Positions 2,268-42,222 of a stretch of 52,569 nt of DNA are shown here, one piece after another. This stretch comes from Firmicutes bacterium FC7 (GTDB lineage: Bacteria; Bacillota; Clostridia; Tissierellales; Tissierellaceae), in assembly GCA_022760735.1 (NCBI GenBank), contig JAKELU010000003.1, forward strand, positions 129,092-181,660. The letters are read 5' to 3'. Every line of letters begins with the position of its first letter. The stretch's first letter is position 1. Under the pieces are notes generated by a model that saw only the letters and a list, made by a program, of their open reading frames with translations, was not told the DNA's origin and made no database searches. Both the position numbers and the translations under genes were made by a program.

Positions 2268-3260
2268 ATGTTACATGTTGGACTACTTTATAGAAAAGTA
2301 GAGGCAAGTAATAGAGACATTGATCCGTTGGATCCTCATGGAGCTATTCAAGTAGACCTTACAGTGAAGGGTATTGAAAAGGCTCTATTAAGCAAAGGAT
2401 ACAAAGTTTCATTAATTCCTGCCTCATTAGACTTATTACAGAGAATAGCTGAAATTAAGGACTTAGATGTGATTTTTAATGCTTGTACAGGGATAACTAA
2501 TAAAAGACAGCAAGCAAACGTTGTAGCTATGTTAGAGTTACAAGATGTTCCATTTGTAGGCTCAAGCTTATCAACTCATATCTTAGGTCTTCATAAACAG
2601 ATAAGCAAAAGGTTGTTTAGGAGTGTAAATATTCCTACTCCAAATTTTCAAGTCTTCTATACTGGAGATGAGGAAATAAACAATAGCCTAAAATATCCAC
2701 TTATCGTTAAGCCTGAACACGAAGGCTCAAGTCTTGGAATCTCGAATGATAGTGTAGTTTTTAATGAAGATGATTTAAGGAAAAAGGTGGCTGAGGTCAT
2801 TAATGTATTTAAACAGCCTGCCCTTGTAGAAGAATTTGTTAGAGGGCGTGAATTTACTGTTGGAGTGTTAGGTAATGATGATCCAGAGGTGTTACCAATA
2901 TTAGAGATACTATACGGTAATAAAGAAGGATTAATGACAGTAGACATAAAGGCAAAGGATTCTGTAGGACAACAATGCCCTGCAAATATTAGTGAAGAGC
3001 TGGTTGATCAAATAAAGGATTATGCAAAAAAAGCTTATAAAGCTTTAAACTGTCATGAATATGCAAGAATTGATGTTAGATTAGATGAGAATAATGTTCC
3101 AAACTTTATTGAAATAAATACTTTACCTGGTCTGCAACCTGATTATAGTGACTTTCCTAAGATGGCAAAGGTAGCGGGTTATAGCTATGAGGATTTAATA
3201 GATAAGATGGTACGATTGGCTATAGAACGCGCTAATAAAGAGTTAAGCTATAATATTTAA
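2268..3260 (+). CDS. D-Ala-D-Ala-ligase-like ATP-grasp enzyme
   Basis: 330 aa. ATP-grasp features of the Ddl family are clear: KPEHEGSSLGIS (about 149-160, ATP-binding Lys and glycine-rich loop), the Asp/Arg of ARIDVRLDENN, and the metal-binding EINTLPGLQPDYSDFP near residue 283. The N-terminal region is unlike ordinary Ddl, which has a GGxSxEHxVS motif; here it reads LYRKVEASNRDIDPLDPHG. The enzyme therefore probably joins a carboxylate to an amine of a different substrate. It opens a three-gene operon (36 bp to the opine-dehydrogenase-like gene, then 5 bp to the B12 protein), which argues against a simple cell-wall role. AGGAGG precedes ATG 2268. Confidence 0.8.
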   Translation: MLHVGLLYRKVEASNRDIDPLDPHGAIQVDLTVKGIEKALLSKGYKVSLIPASLDLLQRIAEIKDLDVIFNACTGITNKRQQANVVAMLELQDVPFVGSSLSTHILGLHKQISKRLFRSVNIPTPNFQVFYTGDEEINNSLKYPLIVKPEHEGSSLGISNDSVVFNEDDLRKKVAEVINVFKQPALVEEFVRGREFTVGVLGNDDPEVLPILEILYGNKEGLMTVDIKAKDSVGQQCPANISEELVDQIKDYAKKAYKALNCHEYARIDVRLDENNVPNFIEINTLPGLQPDYSDFPKMAKVAGYSYEDLIDKMVRLAIERANKELSYNI

Positions 3261-3295
3261 CATATTTTACCTGTATGATAAAAGGAGGTGGATAG

Positions 3296-4375
3296 ATGAA
3301 AGTAACTATTTTGGGAGCTGGAAATTCTGGTATTGCAATGGCTGCTCATTTAAGCAAGGAAGGAAATGAAGTAACCTTATGGAATAGATCTCGTTCAACT
3401 ATATCGAAACTTATTAAAACTAGAACAATCCATTGTGAAGGTGTTATAAGTGGCGAAGTTAATGTAGATATGGTAACAGATGACATAAAAGTTGCTCTAA
3501 AAGATCCAGATATTATTTTGATAACAACACCTGCAAACTCTCATAAAGAACTTGCAGAGTTAATAGCAAAGAATATAGATAAATCAACAGCTATAGTTTT
3601 AAATCCAGGAAGGACATTTGGAGCAATAGAGTTTAAAAGTACTTATAAAAAATATAATAAGATTCATAGACAAATTATAGGGGAGACCCAGACTATAATA
3701 TATACATGTAGAAAAACCGCTGAAGATGCAGTGAACATAATGGCATTTAAAGATTCTGTACTAATATCTTCATTGAATACAGAACCTAATAATACTATTA
3801 TGGATTACTTACCAGATTGCTTAAAAAACTATTTTACTCCAGCTAAATCCATAATAGAAACTTCCATTGGAAATGTTGGTATGATACTTCATTGTGCTCC
3901 ATTGTTATTAAATGCTGGATGGACAGAAAATTTATCAAATAGCTATAAATACTATTATGATGGCATAACTCCTACAATAGCAGGATTATTAGAGAAAATT
4001 GATATGGAAAGAGTGGCTGTATCAGAAGCCTTAGGGCATAGAGTTGAATCAACTATGGAATGGATGAAACGAACATATCACGTTAGTGGAAATAGCCTTT
4101 ATGAGTGCATCCAAAATAATGATGCTTATAAAACTATTGAAGCACCGAGTTCTCTAAGGCATAGATATATCTTTGAGGACATTCCTTGTGGTCTGGTGCC
4201 ATTAGAAGCTATAGGTATTAGATTAGGACTAGATATGAGCTATACAACATTAATAGTTGACTTAGCATCCAAGCTAATGAATGTTGACTTTAGACTAATC
4301 GGACGTAATTTGAAGTATTTAGATATTTCATTAAGTAAATATATACATGGAGACAATCTTTGGAGGGTGGGCTAA
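3296..4375 (+). CDS. Opine/octopine-dehydrogenase-like NAD(P)-dependent enzyme
   Basis: 359 aa. The Rossmann motif GAGNSGIAMAAHL (residues 7-19) binds NAD(P). The C-terminal half carries the family helical domain, with ETSIGNVGMILHCAPLLLNAG (near 195-215; the His is the family's catalytic residue) and HRYIFEDIPCGLVPLEA near 290. Opine dehydrogenases reductively join an amino acid to an alpha-keto acid; distant relatives make opine metallophores. The gene is tightly coupled to the B12-protein gene downstream (5-bp gap) and follows the ATP-grasp ligase, so it likely acts in the same pathway. AAAGGAGG sits just before ATG 3296. The exact substrate cannot be read from the sequence. Confidence 0.82.
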   Translation: MKVTILGAGNSGIAMAAHLSKEGNEVTLWNRSRSTISKLIKTRTIHCEGVISGEVNVDMVTDDIKVALKDPDIILITTPANSHKELAELIAKNIDKSTAIVLNPGRTFGAIEFKSTYKKYNKIHRQIIGETQTIIYTCRKTAEDAVNIMAFKDSVLISSLNTEPNNTIMDYLPDCLKNYFTPAKSIIETSIGNVGMILHCAPLLLNAGWTENLSNSYKYYYDGITPTIAGLLEKIDMERVAVSEALGHRVESTMEWMKRTYHVSGNSLYECIQNNDAYKTIEAPSSLRHRYIFEDIPCGLVPLEAIGIRLGLDMSYTTLIVDLASKLMNVDFRLIGRNLKYLDISLSKYIHGDNLWRVG

Positions 4376-4380
4376 TAGTT

Positions 4381-6276
4381 ATGGGAAAATATATAAAATA
4401 TGGCTTTATAAAACCTGCCTTAGACGCACATACATTAGGAATTAATACTGCAGCGGAGCTTTTGCGTGATTGTGGCTATGATGTAACGATTGCTAAGGAG
4501 TCAATCGCCCAGGCTATGAACGACTATAGGCATGAAGTCCGACGCAAAATAGTTATAGATTGGATAATTTTAGATAAAATAACTAGACTTGGTATCAGCT
4601 ATAGGCTGGATAAAGATGATGCAGTTAATATGTTAGGGTTCCTAATTGAAGAATTAAAAAAAGCAAATCTATTGCAATTCCAAGGTGGGCAAATTGAGAA
4701 TATATTCTTTGCAGGACTTCCTAAGACCTGCGAAGCAGTTGAAAAAGAATTTAAAGGTTTAGTAAAGACTTTTATTGGAGGAGAAACAATTCGAGAGTCA
4801 TTGATAAAAATGGGTGTATCGGAAGAGAGAATTCCTAGTGATATATCTGAAGGAAGTAAATATGATGAATCATTGTTGGAATTTGGTAAAAAAATAATTG
4901 ACTCCCAGGAGTACTTAAAATACAAACCAAGTGATAGATCAGGATACTTAGAATTTGGAACGGATAAAGATAATGTTACAAAGAGAATAGATTCAAATAT
5001 TAGGGAGAATTTCGAACCTTTGATGAGAGCCCATGTAGGACCTTACTCATCTAAAATGACTCGTATGGAATCAGTAAATGAATTTGTTAATTGGGCAAGG
5101 ACTTTAGCTCAATCAAATTATTTAGATATACTTTCAATCGGGAGCTCTCAGTTAACTCAATCTAACTTTGGTGAAGATTGGGGAGATAAAACTAACGGTG
5201 GAGGAGTTCCGATAAATTCTCCTAAAGAATATAGAATGATATGGGAAGCATCAAGACCATTATTAGTAAGAACCTATGCAGGAACTAAGAATATTCCATA
5301 TCTTGCTGAAGTTTATGAGAAAACTCTAAATATATGTTGGCATGCATTGTCATTATGGTGGTTTAACAAGTTAGACGGTAGAGGGCCATATGATGTATAT
5401 ACAAATTTAAGCCAACATATTGAAACGATAAAATATATTGCAAAAACAAATAAACCTCTTGAGGCAAATGTATCTCATCATTTTGCTTTTAGAGGTGCAG
5501 ATGATATTACTTACATTGTATCTGCATACTTAGCAGCTAAATTGGCAAAGACATTAGGGATAAAGACATTTATACTTCAGAACATGTTAAATACTCCAAG
5601 ATCCACTTGGGGAATACAAGACTTAGCAAAATCAAGGGCGATGCTTAAACTTGTAAAAAGTCTAGAAGATAGTAATTTTAGGATTTTATTACAACCGAGA
5701 GCGGGCTTAGATTACTTTAAACCAGATCTTTATGAAGCTAGAATACAATTAGCTGCAGTAACGGGATTGATGGATGATATAGATCCATATAATGAAATGA
5801 GTCCACCGATAATCCATGTTGTCAGCTATTCAGAAGCATCTCACTTGGCAACTCCAGAGATTATAATTGAAAGCATAAAAATTACACAGCATTCTTTACA
5901 AAAGTATCGTGAACTAAGAAGACAAGGTAAAATTGAAGATATGGGCAAAAATTCTGATGTATATGAAAGATCAATTGAACTCTATGAGTCTGCTAAGAAG
6001 ATGATTGCTGCTATAGAAAGTCGCGTTAATAATCCTTACTCTGCTGAAGGGTTTTATAAAATATTTGCAGCAGGCTTTTTACCAGTACCATATTTATGGG
6101 GAGAAGTTGAAGAGTTTAAACACGCAAGAAATTGGAGAACAAAACCTATTAGAGGTAGTATAAAAATAGTTGATGAAAATAATAAGGTAATTAAAACAGA
6201 AAAGGTTATTGAAATTGCTACGGGAAATTTAAAAGATGCAGAATATAATTTAAAACAGCGCCAAAAAATCCAATAG
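4381..6276 (+). CDS. Fused B12-binding / glutamate-mutase-E-like protein
   Basis: 631 aa. Residues 1-150 resemble a cobalamin-binding Rossmann domain: ALDAHTLG at 13-20 contains DxHxxG, whose His is the lower cobalt ligand in base-off B12 enzymes, and FIGGET follows at about 130. From about residue 200 the protein resembles the TIM-barrel E subunit of methylaspartate (glutamate) mutase; QPRAGLD (near 437) parallels the AQPRAGV stretch of GlmE. Normal glutamate mutase has separate S and E subunits, so this is a fused arrangement. No methylaspartate ammonia-lyase gene is nearby. I infer a B12-dependent carbon-skeleton mutase acting with the ligase and dehydrogenase. ATG 4381 is chosen; an upstream TTG at 4360 would overlap the previous gene. 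A non-catalytic or different B12 role is possible. Confidence 0.6.
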   Translation: MGKYIKYGFIKPALDAHTLGINTAAELLRDCGYDVTIAKESIAQAMNDYRHEVRRKIVIDWIILDKITRLGISYRLDKDDAVNMLGFLIEELKKANLLQFQGGQIENIFFAGLPKTCEAVEKEFKGLVKTFIGGETIRESLIKMGVSEERIPSDISEGSKYDESLLEFGKKIIDSQEYLKYKPSDRSGYLEFGTDKDNVTKRIDSNIRENFEPLMRAHVGPYSSKMTRMESVNEFVNWARTLAQSNYLDILSIGSSQLTQSNFGEDWGDKTNGGGVPINSPKEYRMIWEASRPLLVRTYAGTKNIPYLAEVYEKTLNICWHALSLWWFNKLDGRGPYDVYTNLSQHIETIKYIAKTNKPLEANVSHHFAFRGADDITYIVSAYLAAKLAKTLGIKTFILQNMLNTPRSTWGIQDLAKSRAMLKLVKSLEDSNFRILLQPRAGLDYFKPDLYEARIQLAAVTGLMDDIDPYNEMSPPIIHVVSYSEASHLATPEIIIESIKITQHSLQKYRELRRQGKIEDMGKNSDVYERSIELYESAKKMIAAIESRVNNPYSAEGFYKIFAAGFLPVPYLWGEVEEFKHARNWRTKPIRGSIKIVDENNKVIKTEKVIEIATGNLKDAEYNLKQRQKIQ

Positions 6277-6287
6277 TAAATAATTAA

Positions 6288-6329
6288 GGCTTAGGAAGAT
6301 ATAAAACATATTACCCTAAGCCCTTTTTT
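6288..6329. terminator. Terminator between convergent genes
   Basis: GGCTTAGG (6288-6295) and CCTAAGCC (6315-6322) form a stem followed by CTTTTTT on the plus strand. It ends the B12-protein operon just before the convergent aminopeptidase gene. Confidence 0.8.
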
Positions 6330-36129: not shown

Positions 36130-36447
36130 CTAATTATCGTGGTAAAGTGTTAAATAATTAAATTGATATATTAATGCGATGAGAAGAAATAGTAAATATA
36201 TTAATATTTTGTAGAGAGTGCATGGCTGGTGAAAATGCATAAATATCGTATATTGAACACATCTTTGAGCAATTCCTACGAAACCTATAGGGAGTAGTTG
36301 ATTCGGGAGCACCCGATACAGTGCTAGGGTATGTTAGTACCTAAAGAGTTTGATGTCGCGAGGCATCAATAAATAGAGGTGGAACCACGTGAATAATACT
36401 CTCGTCCTCTAGCAAGCAATATGCTAGAAGACGGGAGTTTTTTATGA
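36130..36447 (+). promoter_or_regulatory. T-box riboswitch, probably histidine-specific
   Basis: AGAGGTGGAACCACG (36375-36389) is the conserved T-box sequence. Upstream, stem I is recognisable (AGAGAG near 36213, GGTGAAA near 36229). Its specifier loop has A/T-rich strands pairing above (AATATA / TATATT) and AAGA / TCTT below; the 3' side reads GAACACA, so the specifier is most likely CAC (36258-36260, His). Downstream, ACTCTCGTC (36398-36406) and GACGGGAGT (36430-36438) form the terminator, followed by TTTTTT. Uncharged tRNA-His would switch on the amino-acid importer downstream. ATC (Ile) is a less likely alternative reading. Confidence 0.85.
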
Positions 36448-38863: not shown

Positions 38864-40048
38864 TTAATGTATTGAAGATAAAACGTCTGCTTTTGTAACA
38901 ATGCCCTTTAGGCTTTTATCTGTTTCGTCTATTACTGCAATTGGGTATTTTGTTTTAGCAGCAATATCTATAATATCAGTTATTAGAGTGTCTGTTGTTG
39001 TAGTATCTACATCCTTTATTAGAATATCAGAAATTGATAATTTTTCTTTATTTGCTCGAATTGCATCATCAATAGTAACAACACCTTCAAACTGCATTTT
39101 CTCTCTTACCACATAAGCAGTAGAGACCTTATTTGCTCGCATCATATTAATTGCATAATTAGGCGTATCCTTAAGTCTTATAATGCTATTAGGAGTAGAC
39201 ATTACATTCTTAACGCTTATAACTTGGGTTTTGTCCGCACTATCTATAAATTGTCTAACATAGTCAGTTGCAGGGTTTGAACTCATTTCTTCGGGTGTAG
39301 CTACTTGTATAAGTTCTCCGTCCTTCATTATGGCAACTTTATCACCTAACTTAAAGGCCTCATTTATATCATGGGTAATAAATATTATTGTTTTATCTAA
39401 CTTTCTCTGAATTGACAGCAATTCAAATTGCATATCCTTTCTAACTAAGGGATCTAGTGCCGAAAAAGGCTCATCCATAAGGAGTATTTCAGGGTCATTT
39501 GCCAATGCCCTAGCAATACCTACCCGTTGCTTCATACCTCCTGATAAGCTTGATATAGGTTCGTTTTCATAGCCTTCAAGACCGACCATTTGTATCATTT
39601 CTTTAGCCTTATTATAACGTTCTTCCTTTGATACACCCTTTACTTCCAGGCCATATTCAACATTGCTTATTACATTTCTGTGGGACATAAGTCCAAAATT
39701 TTGAAATACCATAGATATCTTATTTCTTCTATAATCTAACAGTTCATTATTGTTAAACTTATTAATACTTTTTCCTTTAAATAGTATTTGTCCCTTTGTT
39801 GGTTTGTTTAACAAGTTAAAACAACGTACTAAAGTGGATTTTCCAGAACCTGACAAACCAATAATTACAAATATTTCACCTTTCTTAATATCTAAATTAA
39901 TATCCCATAGAGCTATAGTTGAACCTGTTTTCTTGTAGATTGAATTTTTATCTGCACCACTTTGTTTAAGCTTAATTGCTCTATTTTTTTCCGGTCCATA
40001 AATTTTATATAGATTTCTTACACTCAATATTGTTTCATTATTTGCCAC
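38864..40048 (-). CDS. opuAA: Glycine betaine/choline-type ABC transporter ATPase with CBS domains
   Basis: 394 aa. ABC domain: Walker A GLSGSGKST (near 58), signature LSGGMKQRVGIARALA (near 164), Walker B ILLMDEPFSALDPLVRKDM. The C-terminal 120 residues hold a CBS pair (VMSTPNSIIRLKDT and ISDILIKDVDTTTTDTL), which in OpuA senses ionic strength and c-di-AMP. It starts with GTG (40048-40046), AGGTGA upstream, and overlaps the fused transporter gene by 11 bp. ProV is the E. coli counterpart. Confidence 0.94.
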   Translation of the reverse strand: MANNETILSVRNLYKIYGPEKNRAIKLKQSGADKNSIYKKTGSTIALWDINLDIKKGEIFVIIGLSGSGKSTLVRCFNLLNKPTKGQILFKGKSINKFNNNELLDYRRNKISMVFQNFGLMSHRNVISNVEYGLEVKGVSKEERYNKAKEMIQMVGLEGYENEPISSLSGGMKQRVGIARALANDPEILLMDEPFSALDPLVRKDMQFELLSIQRKLDKTIIFITHDINEAFKLGDKVAIMKDGELIQVATPEEMSSNPATDYVRQFIDSADKTQVISVKNVMSTPNSIIRLKDTPNYAINMMRANKVSTAYVVREKMQFEGVVTIDDAIRANKEKLSISDILIKDVDTTTTDTLITDIIDIAAKTKYPIAVIDETDKSLKGIVTKADVLSSIH

Positions 40049-41924
40049 TGTTGTTCACCTCGCTTCTCTTAACTAATCCCTGAGTTATTCTATCCAGTAT
40101 TACAGCGATAATGACTACTGCAATTCCTGAAATAAGACCTCTTCCAATTTCGATACGATTTACTCCTATAAGTACTTCCATACCTAGCCCAGTAGCACCT
40201 ATCATAGATGTAGTTACTACCATACTCATGGCCATCATAAGAGTTTGATTGACTCCTGCCATAATTGTTGGTAAAGCTTGGGGTATCTGTACTTTTATTA
40301 AGGATTGAAGTTTTGTTGAACCGAAAGCAATACTTGCCTCTATTAATTCTTCTTCTATCTGTCTGATTCCGTGATTTGTTAGTCTAATTATTGGAACTAT
40401 GGCATAAATAGTAGTAGCTATAACAGCCGGAGGATTACCTAATCCAAAGAATAATAATGCTGGGATTAAATATACAAAGACAGGCATTGTTTGCATTGTA
40501 TCTAATATTGGCCGCATGATTCTATCTGCTTTATCACTTGTCGATAAAAACACACCTATTGGGAATCCAAAAAGCAATGAAATAACAACAGAAGCTATCA
40601 CGATAGATAATGTTTGAATCATGTGGCTCCAAAAGCCTACTACTCCAATTAGCAATAGTAATATTGCATATAAAATTCCTTTTCCTATACTGTTACTCAT
40701 TCTCCATCCCAATAGAAATACTACAATTAAGAATATAAACCAAGGAATGAAAGCGAGAATGTTGTATATTATACTAACAAGATTGCCTAAGACCAATCTT
40801 ATACTATTAAAAAATGAATCATATTTGACACTAAATGCTCTGATAGATTCATCAATTTTATTTAAATCTAGTGGTATTTTAAAAGGAATTTCATAAAGCC
40901 ACGTTGCACTATCTTGTACTTCATTGCCAGCCAGGTAGGTTCTTATAATTTTAGCATCTTCTTCGTTTAACCACTCATCGATTAAATTATCATGTTCTTG
41001 TAGGAACCATTTGGCTGTTTCTTCATAATCCGCTCCTGTGTCTTGCATATATGCTAGAGCCTTTGAAGTTAAGGAGCTGGAAGTTTTATATTTGCTTAGG
41101 AAATTAACCATTTCTGGATTGTTTTTATAAAAATTATTGCTAACTGCTATTGTTACTTCAACAGGAGGCAGTTCAGTTTTACCTTCCTTAAATGCTGTAT
41201 CATCAATATATGGTTCATCCTGCAAAAGTACCATATCTAGCTTACCTAATAGCCATGTTGGTTCCCAATAGTAAGCCACTATTGGCTCTCCTCTTTCATA
41301 AGCGGAAGTTATAGCTGAAGCTAAAGCAGCATCTGAACCTGGTCTAAAATATATAAAGTTATCATCTAAATCATAATGCAAATATTTGTTATAAAGTATA
41401 GTATCTACTTCCCATCCAGGTATTCCACCATAGATTCTACCCATATTAGGGTTTTCTGCATCTTGGAACACATTATGATAGTTCTTTAAATCCCAAACAT
41501 ATTTTAAATCTGGGGCCATTGGCTCAATCCCTCTTTCAGGATCTCCCTCTATAACATATCTTGGGACATAAAGACCTTGAAAGTTATCATCAAAATTAAT
41601 ACCTAGTTCAACTAACTTTCCTGATTCAAGATCACCTTCATAAGTGGCTATATTGTCAGTCCATTCTTCCATATGAATGTCAACTTCACCATTTATTAAA
41701 CCTTCATGTAGTACTGCTGATGACCCTGGAACCTCTCTCCAGGTATATCCATATAGCACTTCGGCTATTAATCCTGCCACTGCATTATGAAATTTAACAC
41801 TATCCCAGCCAGCGTCTGCAAAGATAATTTCATTGCCTGAGTAGTCATTTTTATTGCTGGAATGTGCAACTGTAGTACCTATAATAAGGAGAATTATCAA
41901 TAATGTGCAAATAAATTTTTTCAT
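40038..41924 (-). CDS. Fused glycine-betaine-type binding protein and permease (OpuABC-like)
   Basis: 628 aa. A signal-like N-terminus (MKKFICTLLIILLIIGTTVA) leads to an OpuAC-type binding domain (about 30-310: IIFADAGWDSVKFHNAVAG, Trp-rich IVAYYWEPTWLL). A linker follows, then a permease domain (about 375-620: DTMQTMPVFVYLIPALLFFG, EELIEASIAFGSTKLQSLIK, NQTLMMAMSMVV). The order is binding domain first, permease second; Lactococcus OpuABC has the opposite order. It imports betaine, choline or carnitine-like osmolytes with the ATPase downstream. The gene lies behind a c-di-AMP riboswitch; AAGGAAGGTGAT precedes the ATG. Confidence 0.9.
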   Translation of the reverse strand: MKKFICTLLIILLIIGTTVAHSSNKNDYSGNEIIFADAGWDSVKFHNAVAGLIAEVLYGYTWREVPGSSAVLHEGLINGEVDIHMEEWTDNIATYEGDLESGKLVELGINFDDNFQGLYVPRYVIEGDPERGIEPMAPDLKYVWDLKNYHNVFQDAENPNMGRIYGGIPGWEVDTILYNKYLHYDLDDNFIYFRPGSDAALASAITSAYERGEPIVAYYWEPTWLLGKLDMVLLQDEPYIDDTAFKEGKTELPPVEVTIAVSNNFYKNNPEMVNFLSKYKTSSSLTSKALAYMQDTGADYEETAKWFLQEHDNLIDEWLNEEDAKIIRTYLAGNEVQDSATWLYEIPFKIPLDLNKIDESIRAFSVKYDSFFNSIRLVLGNLVSIIYNILAFIPWFIFLIVVFLLGWRMSNSIGKGILYAILLLLIGVVGFWSHMIQTLSIVIASVVISLLFGFPIGVFLSTSDKADRIMRPILDTMQTMPVFVYLIPALLFFGLGNPPAVIATTIYAIVPIIRLTNHGIRQIEEELIEASIAFGSTKLQSLIKVQIPQALPTIMAGVNQTLMMAMSMVVTTSMIGATGLGMEVLIGVNRIEIGRGLISGIAVVIIAVILDRITQGLVKRSEVNNSGK

Positions 41925-41996: not shown

Positions 41997-42152
41997 AAAA
42001 AAAGCTATGGAGTTCCATAGCTTTAATAGCATTATACAACTCCCCTTTACGCTTACGAGGTTAGCTGTCGGGTTAGGATAAAGGGTATCCTTCGTTTTGA
42101 TTCACCCCAAAAAATTGGTTCCCCCGCTTCTTAAAAATAAGAATTCAGCGAT
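41997..42152 (-). promoter_or_regulatory. c-di-AMP riboswitch (ydaO/yuaA class)
   Basis: On the minus strand the hallmark blocks appear in order: CGCTGAATTC (42150-42141), CGGGGGAACC (42126-42117), GGGGTGAATC (42108-42099), CCCGACAGCTAACCTCGTAA (42072-42053), then GGGGAG. A terminator follows: AAAGCTATGG / CCATAGCTTT (42024-42001) and a T run. High c-di-AMP stops transcription in known members, which fits repression of the betaine importer 73 nt downstream when turgor is high. Confidence 0.92.
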
Positions 42153-42222
42153 AATTTGTAGTATATACTTGTATTTAGTTATTTAGTATAACACAATCTA
42201 AATTATAAAGCAAATTGCAGAA

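Follow-up and report, generated by a model that had tools for sequence, protein, structure and literature searches.

The locus at positions 2,268 to 6,276 of a 52,569-nucleotide stretch of contig JAKELU010000003.1 from Firmicutes bacterium FC7 (assembly GCA_022760735.1; the whole stretch is hereafter called the window) raises the question of what is made by three closely packed genes on its plus strand. These are predicted to code for a Ddl-like ATP-grasp ligase (gene A, 2268-3260, 330 amino acids (aa)), an opine-type NAD(P) dehydrogenase (gene B, 3296-4375, 359 aa) and a single-chain protein that joins a B12-binding domain to a glutamate-mutase-E-like barrel (gene C, 4381-6276, 631 aa). The open reading frames (ORFs) form one tight operon, placed as in a first-pass annotation made from the letters of the DNA. 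Our preferred answer, to which a probability of slightly below one half (about 0.48) is assigned, is that B and C constitute a two-enzyme module whose product in Firmicutes relatives is subject to osmotic control and is most likely a compatible solute. An osmotically controlled metabolite is indicated by riboswitches for cyclic di-AMP (c-di-AMP) located 5′ of the module in relatives; since no such riboswitch precedes the trio of the window, the osmotic role of the latter is carried over from these relatives. The module itself is real, conserved and partly known already.

Homologs of C were found in 23 of 60 relatives, in 22 of 391 genomes of the class (the window's own genome being counted in both) and in 419 genome_contigs stretches, which were scanned with a single peptide pattern and of which 80 were kept, a sample that leans towards the subfamily of the window. 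Five duplicates sharing contigs with genome_contigs loci (L050, L051, L053, L054 and L057) and one locus in which no C was called (L135) were left out of the locus set. Additionally, a held-out set was formed from 20 of the 24 C-matching genomes that were left, G023, G031, G097 and G302 being excluded as fragments or weak matches. No match to C was obtained in a plasmid search at E 1e-5. B adjoins C in at least 72 of the 95 loci with a called C and lies no more than three genes away in at least 77 of them; both counts are lower bounds, as L107 was scored without B despite an adjoining B and several loci are cut by contig edges. In the held-out set the two genes were adjacent in all 20 loci. 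The pairs share a strand in 67 of 68 cases and are separated by 60 nt or less in 64 of 67, and a mirror-tree comparison of B and C gave a Spearman coefficient of 0.61, a value that did not exceed 0.19 in any of 500 permutations, shared descent not being removed.

The ligase behaves differently from this pair. Of the 95 loci, 6 have an A-type ligase no more than six genes away from C, and 24 have another ATP-grasp gene. Complete A-B-C trios are present in the window, in L059, L064, L068, L082 and L136 and, in the order of the window, in the held-out loci L253, L254 and L262. In G001, a genome of the same genus, the MerR regulator (90%), the FMN reductase (79%), A (80%) and an M29 peptidase (87.5%) follow each other as in the window, with a DctM transporter gene occupying the place of B and C, so that A occurs there without them. 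Because of the adjacency counts and of this locus, B-C is regarded as a conserved unit and A as a recurrent but optional partner. The first-pass annotation had proposed the trio as the unit, to be abandoned if the genes were not neighbours in relatives: trios do recur and B and C are kept together, whereas an A-type ligase is near C in few loci and A stands without B-C in G001. On a reading that is on the whole doubtful, A is outside the pathway in the window organism and B and C lie behind a ligase with its own job; the G001 flanks fit this, as does an A-type ligase beside a lysine-2,3-aminomutase-like gene in G100. Three observations oppose it: the trio ligases are distributed over several separate branches of the A tree (some forks of which are weak), A-type and other ATP-grasp genes are concentrated near C (29 of 502 ORFs up to three genes away, 4 of 389 at a distance of four to six genes, 1 of 200 farther out), and in L254 a single riboswitch precedes A-B-C.

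The regulatory evidence for the osmotic interpretation of the B-C module comes from relatives. Riboswitch-controlled B-C genes are present, for example, in [Clostridium] ultunense DSM 10521 (L079/L234), while Acidaminobacter hydrogenoformans DSM 2784 (L071) has a B-C pair of the window type. The c-di-AMP riboswitch family RF00379 scored above the Rfam gathering threshold in 8 of the 12 loci L058 to L069 (L059-L065 and L069), which belong to more distant subfamilies, and in each of the eight B or C is the next gene on the same strand, 23 to 179 nt downstream. A custom riboswitch model, built from these eight sites and the opu-type site of the window, was run across 96 sources and was the only model used for L067. 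Beyond its nine training sites it detected one riboswitch 5′ of B (L098) and one that does not adjoin B or C (L055); a 64-nt match in L115 (E 0.033) was taken as chance. In the held-out loci a riboswitch was present 5′ of the operon in 10 of 20. In 11 genomes, all but one of which had been chosen for having such a site, c-di-AMP riboswitches were counted genome-wide: of the 26 found, 11 stand at the head of B or C; in G010, G028 and G039 this is the sole c-di-AMP riboswitch found, and in G032 both head the module. When the riboswitch was mapped as a label on the B tree, four changes (gains or losses) were counted, at least three of them forced by well-supported branches; the rows did not include the held-out loci, and the 'glycan' labels on this tree were assigned by hand. 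No riboswitch was found at the A-type loci without B and C (L205-L209, L219 and L220). In the genome of the window, none of the three c-di-AMP riboswitches heads B or C. One of the three lies within the window itself, at 42035-42160 on the minus strand (98 bits), 5′ of genes which by eye resemble a glycine-betaine ABC transporter (38864-41924).

The main bridge from these riboswitches to the window is an indirect one. Ten genomes (G008, G022, G032 and G444-G450) carry a window-type C without an adjoining B on its contig, and each of them has a B elsewhere, complete in nine cases and cut by a contig end in one (G449). A riboswitch was located 5′ of this B in all nine testable genomes, those with a complete gene, and no C was found behind eight of the nine. 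In G444 a relic of 23 to 28 codons of the shorter C type remains behind the riboswitch-controlled B (L236, 2629-2712). On one reading, the window-type C has replaced the shorter type as the partner of an osmotically controlled B.

Several results weigh against the osmotic interpretation or its transfer to the window. This bridge is weakened by G447 and G022. In G447 the B under riboswitch control is still followed by a C, of 549 aa, so that both C types are present; G022 has a further B, of the window type (67%, L210), which lacks a riboswitch and might be the one that really pairs with its C. No relic of C was detected behind the eight other C-less Bs searched (L212, L213, L214, L216, L232, L233, L235 and L237), and B also occurs in genomes in which no C was found (G016 and G001). 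Within the subfamily of the window, a riboswitch was located 5′ of B in 1 of 84 loci, some of them cut by contig ends, and no RF00379 match was obtained directly 5′ of or near the trio of the window, lax thresholds included. Moreover, c-di-AMP riboswitches control potassium uptake and wall genes as well, so that riboswitch control by itself is no proof of an osmolyte. Finally, many loci of Bacteroidota and rumen Firmicutes lie within surface-glycan clusters.

A rival explanation is an envelope building block: B and C would make an acyl group, opine-like or branched, for ligases to place on amino sugars or on peptides of the wall, and the c-di-AMP link would stem from control of wall or turgor and not from a free solute. 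In L067, L119, L132 and others, B-C is found amid glycosyltransferase, Wzx-type, DegT aminotransferase, ATP-grasp and asparagine-synthase-type genes, and an alanopine (opine) derivative of 4-amino-4,6-dideoxyglucose is given in PMC10609480 as a constituent of an O-antigen. We consider this explanation rather unlikely, as no glycosyltransferase, Wzx or DegT tag was present in the nine tagged riboswitch loci (L059-L065, L069 and L098; tagging covered the loci outside the held-out set) and as the neighbours in L064 are of another kind, namely a keto-acid oxidoreductase, a phosphate acyltransferase, an acyl kinase and fatty-acid genes. Together with homologs of the oxidoreductase gene in L060-L063, the first three of these suggest a catabolic role, in which B would split an imported opine and C would rearrange the amino acid so released, which is then fermented, A being incidental. 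Such a role appears improbable: the copies in glycan clusters and the ligase partners suggest synthesis, and control of a catabolic set by c-di-AMP would be odd. Small mechanosensitive-channel-like genes near B-C in L127 and L139 (by Pfam) and in L146 (by sequence cluster) were counted in favour of the osmotic interpretation.

Further features of these settings were recorded. Asparagine-synthase-type genes adjoin the module in L098, L122 and L127. Thirteen loci have SDR genes close to C, but these look heterogeneous and were set aside. In L096, L097, L100 and L102, B-C is followed by a conserved gene of 441-525 aa, resembling an amine-oxidase-type flavoprotein as judged from its first residues only, and then by a gene of 859-911 aa.

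With regard to the enzymes themselves, C is a B12 protein with a mutase fold that does not contain the lysine for pyridoxal phosphate (PLP). When C alone was compared with Pfam, a single sub-threshold B12-binding match was obtained (E 0.023); a search of the Protein Data Bank (PDB) with the sequence of C alone gave chance-level matches only, and no NCBIfam family matched C at E≤1. The family profile of C, by contrast with the single sequence, matched solved proteins in their B12-binding domains (best E 8e-07), which together with the axial motif places the N-terminal cobalamin-binding domain at residues of about 6-175 (4396-4905, the end being approximate). The axial-ligand motif reads DAHTLG, with His17 at 4429-4431, and among rows with a residue at the position the D, H and G of the DxHxxG motif of base-off/His-on B12 enzymes are present in 85, 93 and 93 of 93, respectively. 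A lysine 11 residues past the axial histidine, which in B12 aminomutases (KamE) we take to be the residue that holds PLP, occurs in none of the 95 C rows and in all nine KamE motifs read from 10 loci.

The structure of C was predicted with a mean confidence (pLDDT) of 86.3, and a structure search with the model returned glutamate mutase E (GlmE) as best match (E 8e-12). The barrel, residues 194-612 (4960-6216), aligned with 1cb7_B (GlmE) at Z 27.8 and a root-mean-square deviation of 3.2 over 376 residues, followed by lysine 5,6-aminomutase (Z 25.8), ornithine 4,5-aminomutase (Z 24.1) and methylmalonyl-CoA mutase (Z 18.6); the model of C accordingly has the barrel of the adenosylcobalamin (AdoCbl) carbon-skeleton mutases. 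The fused B12 mutase-like protein of the first-pass annotation is thereby borne out. Family profiles agree across 204 columns (C against GlmE, E 9e-5). The curated GlmE family PF06368 did not match the C of the window at E≤1 and its curated score was not attained; among five distant C homologs, three matched below the cut-off (E 1.6e-4 to 0.029) and two did not, and a 549-aa relative in G048 barely reached it (26.7 against 26.6 bits). Residues R216, Q260, Y299, W327, D332, R334, E361, R371, D375, H479 and E485 are invariant in all 95 rows, and at least 17 barrel columns are identical throughout, spanning three subfamilies, which makes a common core reaction of the subfamilies probable. H218, Q260, R297, D332 and R334 are the putative pocket residues. 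The window organism also has a glutamate mutase locus with its own glmE on another contig (C15), and no PF16554 aminomutase was found in its genome; C is therefore not one of those enzymes. We infer that C acts as a mutase and not as some other kind of B12 enzyme. A methyltransferase-like or other non-mutase function, as a 2009 hint to COG5012 would allow, is considered highly improbable: corrinoid methyltransferase proteins and methionine synthases are indeed among the best sequence matches of the N-terminal domain, but the barrel matches mutases above all.

B is an opine-type dehydrogenase by homology, as had been annotated. It matched Pfam Octopine_DH with E 1e-43, its PF02317 alpha-helical domain scored 149.3 bits against a cut-off of 30, and the closest solved protein by sequence is N-(1-D-carboxylethyl)-L-norvaline dehydrogenase (1bg6, E 1e-65, residues 4-345). 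His199 of B aligns with His202 of 1bg6, and a histidine is kept here in all 68 adjacent B-C pairs. A likewise appears from its domain matches to be a Ddl-like ATP-grasp ligase, as first annotated, and not Ddl itself. Its match to Pfam Dala_Dala_lig_C is strong (E 2.5e-44), it scored 168.6 of the 245.65 required for the NCBIfam Ddl model TIGR01205, and it remained below the curated NCBIfam cut-offs in all 25 listed of the 52 matching Ddl-type models. Compared with the Ddl of the same organism (L218), A differs at the N-terminus, where the GGxSxE-type segment is missing, and in the loop preceding the conserved PA segment. In L208 (6690-8890) an A-type ligase overlaps a lysine-2,3-aminomutase-like radical S-adenosylmethionine (SAM) gene, which is another mutase-ligase pair, and the same layout is seen in L220.

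A mechanism for the osmotically controlled module may be outlined as follows; the order of the steps, the substrates and the osmolyte nature of the product are inferred. C would bind AdoCbl base-off via His17 and, being glutamate-mutase-like and free of PLP, would catalyse a 1,2-radical shift that rearranges the skeleton of an amino acid. B would join the rearranged amino acid with an alpha-keto acid to an opine-type secondary amine at the expense of NAD(P)H or, in reverse, free it. Where a ligase is present (A in the window, or an asparagine-synthase-type amidoligase), it would cap or couple the carboxylate with ATP, and the product would be a non-protein amino-acid derivative. A bolder extension is that C is the first of a class of PLP-free B12 mutases acting on an opine or its amino-acid part, that with B, and a ligase in places, it makes a family of compatible solutes induced as c-di-AMP falls, and that this building block has been recruited for surface glycans in Bacteroidota and gut Firmicutes; as a whole, this is speculative and unlikely.

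An orphan B12-dependent family predicted in 2009 thus gains a fold, an active-site pattern, two genomic settings and a regulatory signal, and the signal names a condition, osmotic stress, under which the product can be sought. If the proposal is true, both the radical rearrangement and the class of bacterial osmolyte would be new, and genes of unknown function under c-di-AMP riboswitches would be given a job.

The layout of the operon was also analyzed. The first-pass annotation gave gaps of 36 and 5 bp; the second was confirmed, and the A/B gap measures 35 bp. Translation of C is predicted to start at ATG 4381 (631 aa), preceded within the end of B by a good, purine-rich ribosome-binding site read from the sequence (GGAGGGTGGG, 4362-4372, plus strand), or at TTG 4360. 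The terminator claimed for the operon end was recovered at 6288-6329 (plus strand) as an intrinsic terminator with an 8-pair stem (5 G-C) and an inner stem followed by TTTTTT; its folding energy is -15.3 kcal/mol (z -5.2), which was equalled or surpassed by 0 of 200 shuffles. A simple terminator scan did not list this stem, probably because of its loop limit of 8. Neither a cobalamin riboswitch nor a T-box was present 5′ of the trio in an RNA-family search; the T-box leader of the window is far off at 36170-36412 (plus strand), 5′ of genes which by eye resemble an amino-acid ABC transporter (from 36624). Directly 5′ of the trio, a MerR-TipAS regulator and the FMN reductase are encoded at 630-2032, their synteny with A being kept in G001, and A may be a target of the regulator. 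At 39-335 there are five CRISPR-DR2-like repeats at even spacing, under the gathering score, which are perhaps the end of a CRISPR array.

The trio had initially been called an undescribed pathway, a description that does not hold. In PMC2667541 (2009), a B12 family was predicted in 11 bacteria, always with an adjacent octopine dehydrogenase (pfam02317) and in several organisms with Ddl and asparagine synthase close by, and in PMC2626281 (2009) the pair was noted in Halothermothrix orenii with its role called unknown. By description, the family of PMC2667541 matches the module of the window, with an N-terminal B12-binding protein beside pfam02317 and Ddl or asparagine synthase near; the section on this family gives no function, mutase fold, riboswitch or glycan link. 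Four points go beyond prior work: C has the fold of a mutase yet no PLP lysine, barrel residues are shared across the subfamilies, c-di-AMP riboswitches recur, and copies of the module lie in glycan clusters. In the open-licence literature searched, no paper tying the B-C pair to c-di-AMP was found, prior notice being possible, and none on glutamate mutase together with an opine dehydrogenase.

Among characterized systems, the pyrrolysine genes pylB, pylC and pylD code for a mutase, which is a radical-SAM enzyme, an ATP-grasp ligase and a Rossmann dehydrogenase; they are a parallel to the trio in the way they work, and no membership is claimed. B is likened to 1bg6 by sequence, with a match along nearly the whole length and the aligned histidine conserved. 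C resembles glutamate mutase (GlmS/GlmE) in its barrel fold, in the AdoCbl motif and in having no PLP lysine, and differs from it by the fusion of the B12 domain at the N-terminus. At the level of residues, the best alignment places a histidine opposite Arg66 and a glutamine at or beside Arg100, which have claw roles in GlmE, and is a hint only, its middle part being uncertain. Lysine 5,6-aminomutase and ornithine 4,5-aminomutase share the barrel fold and a DAHTxGI-type motif with C, and are set apart from it by the PLP lysine that is missing in all 95 C rows.

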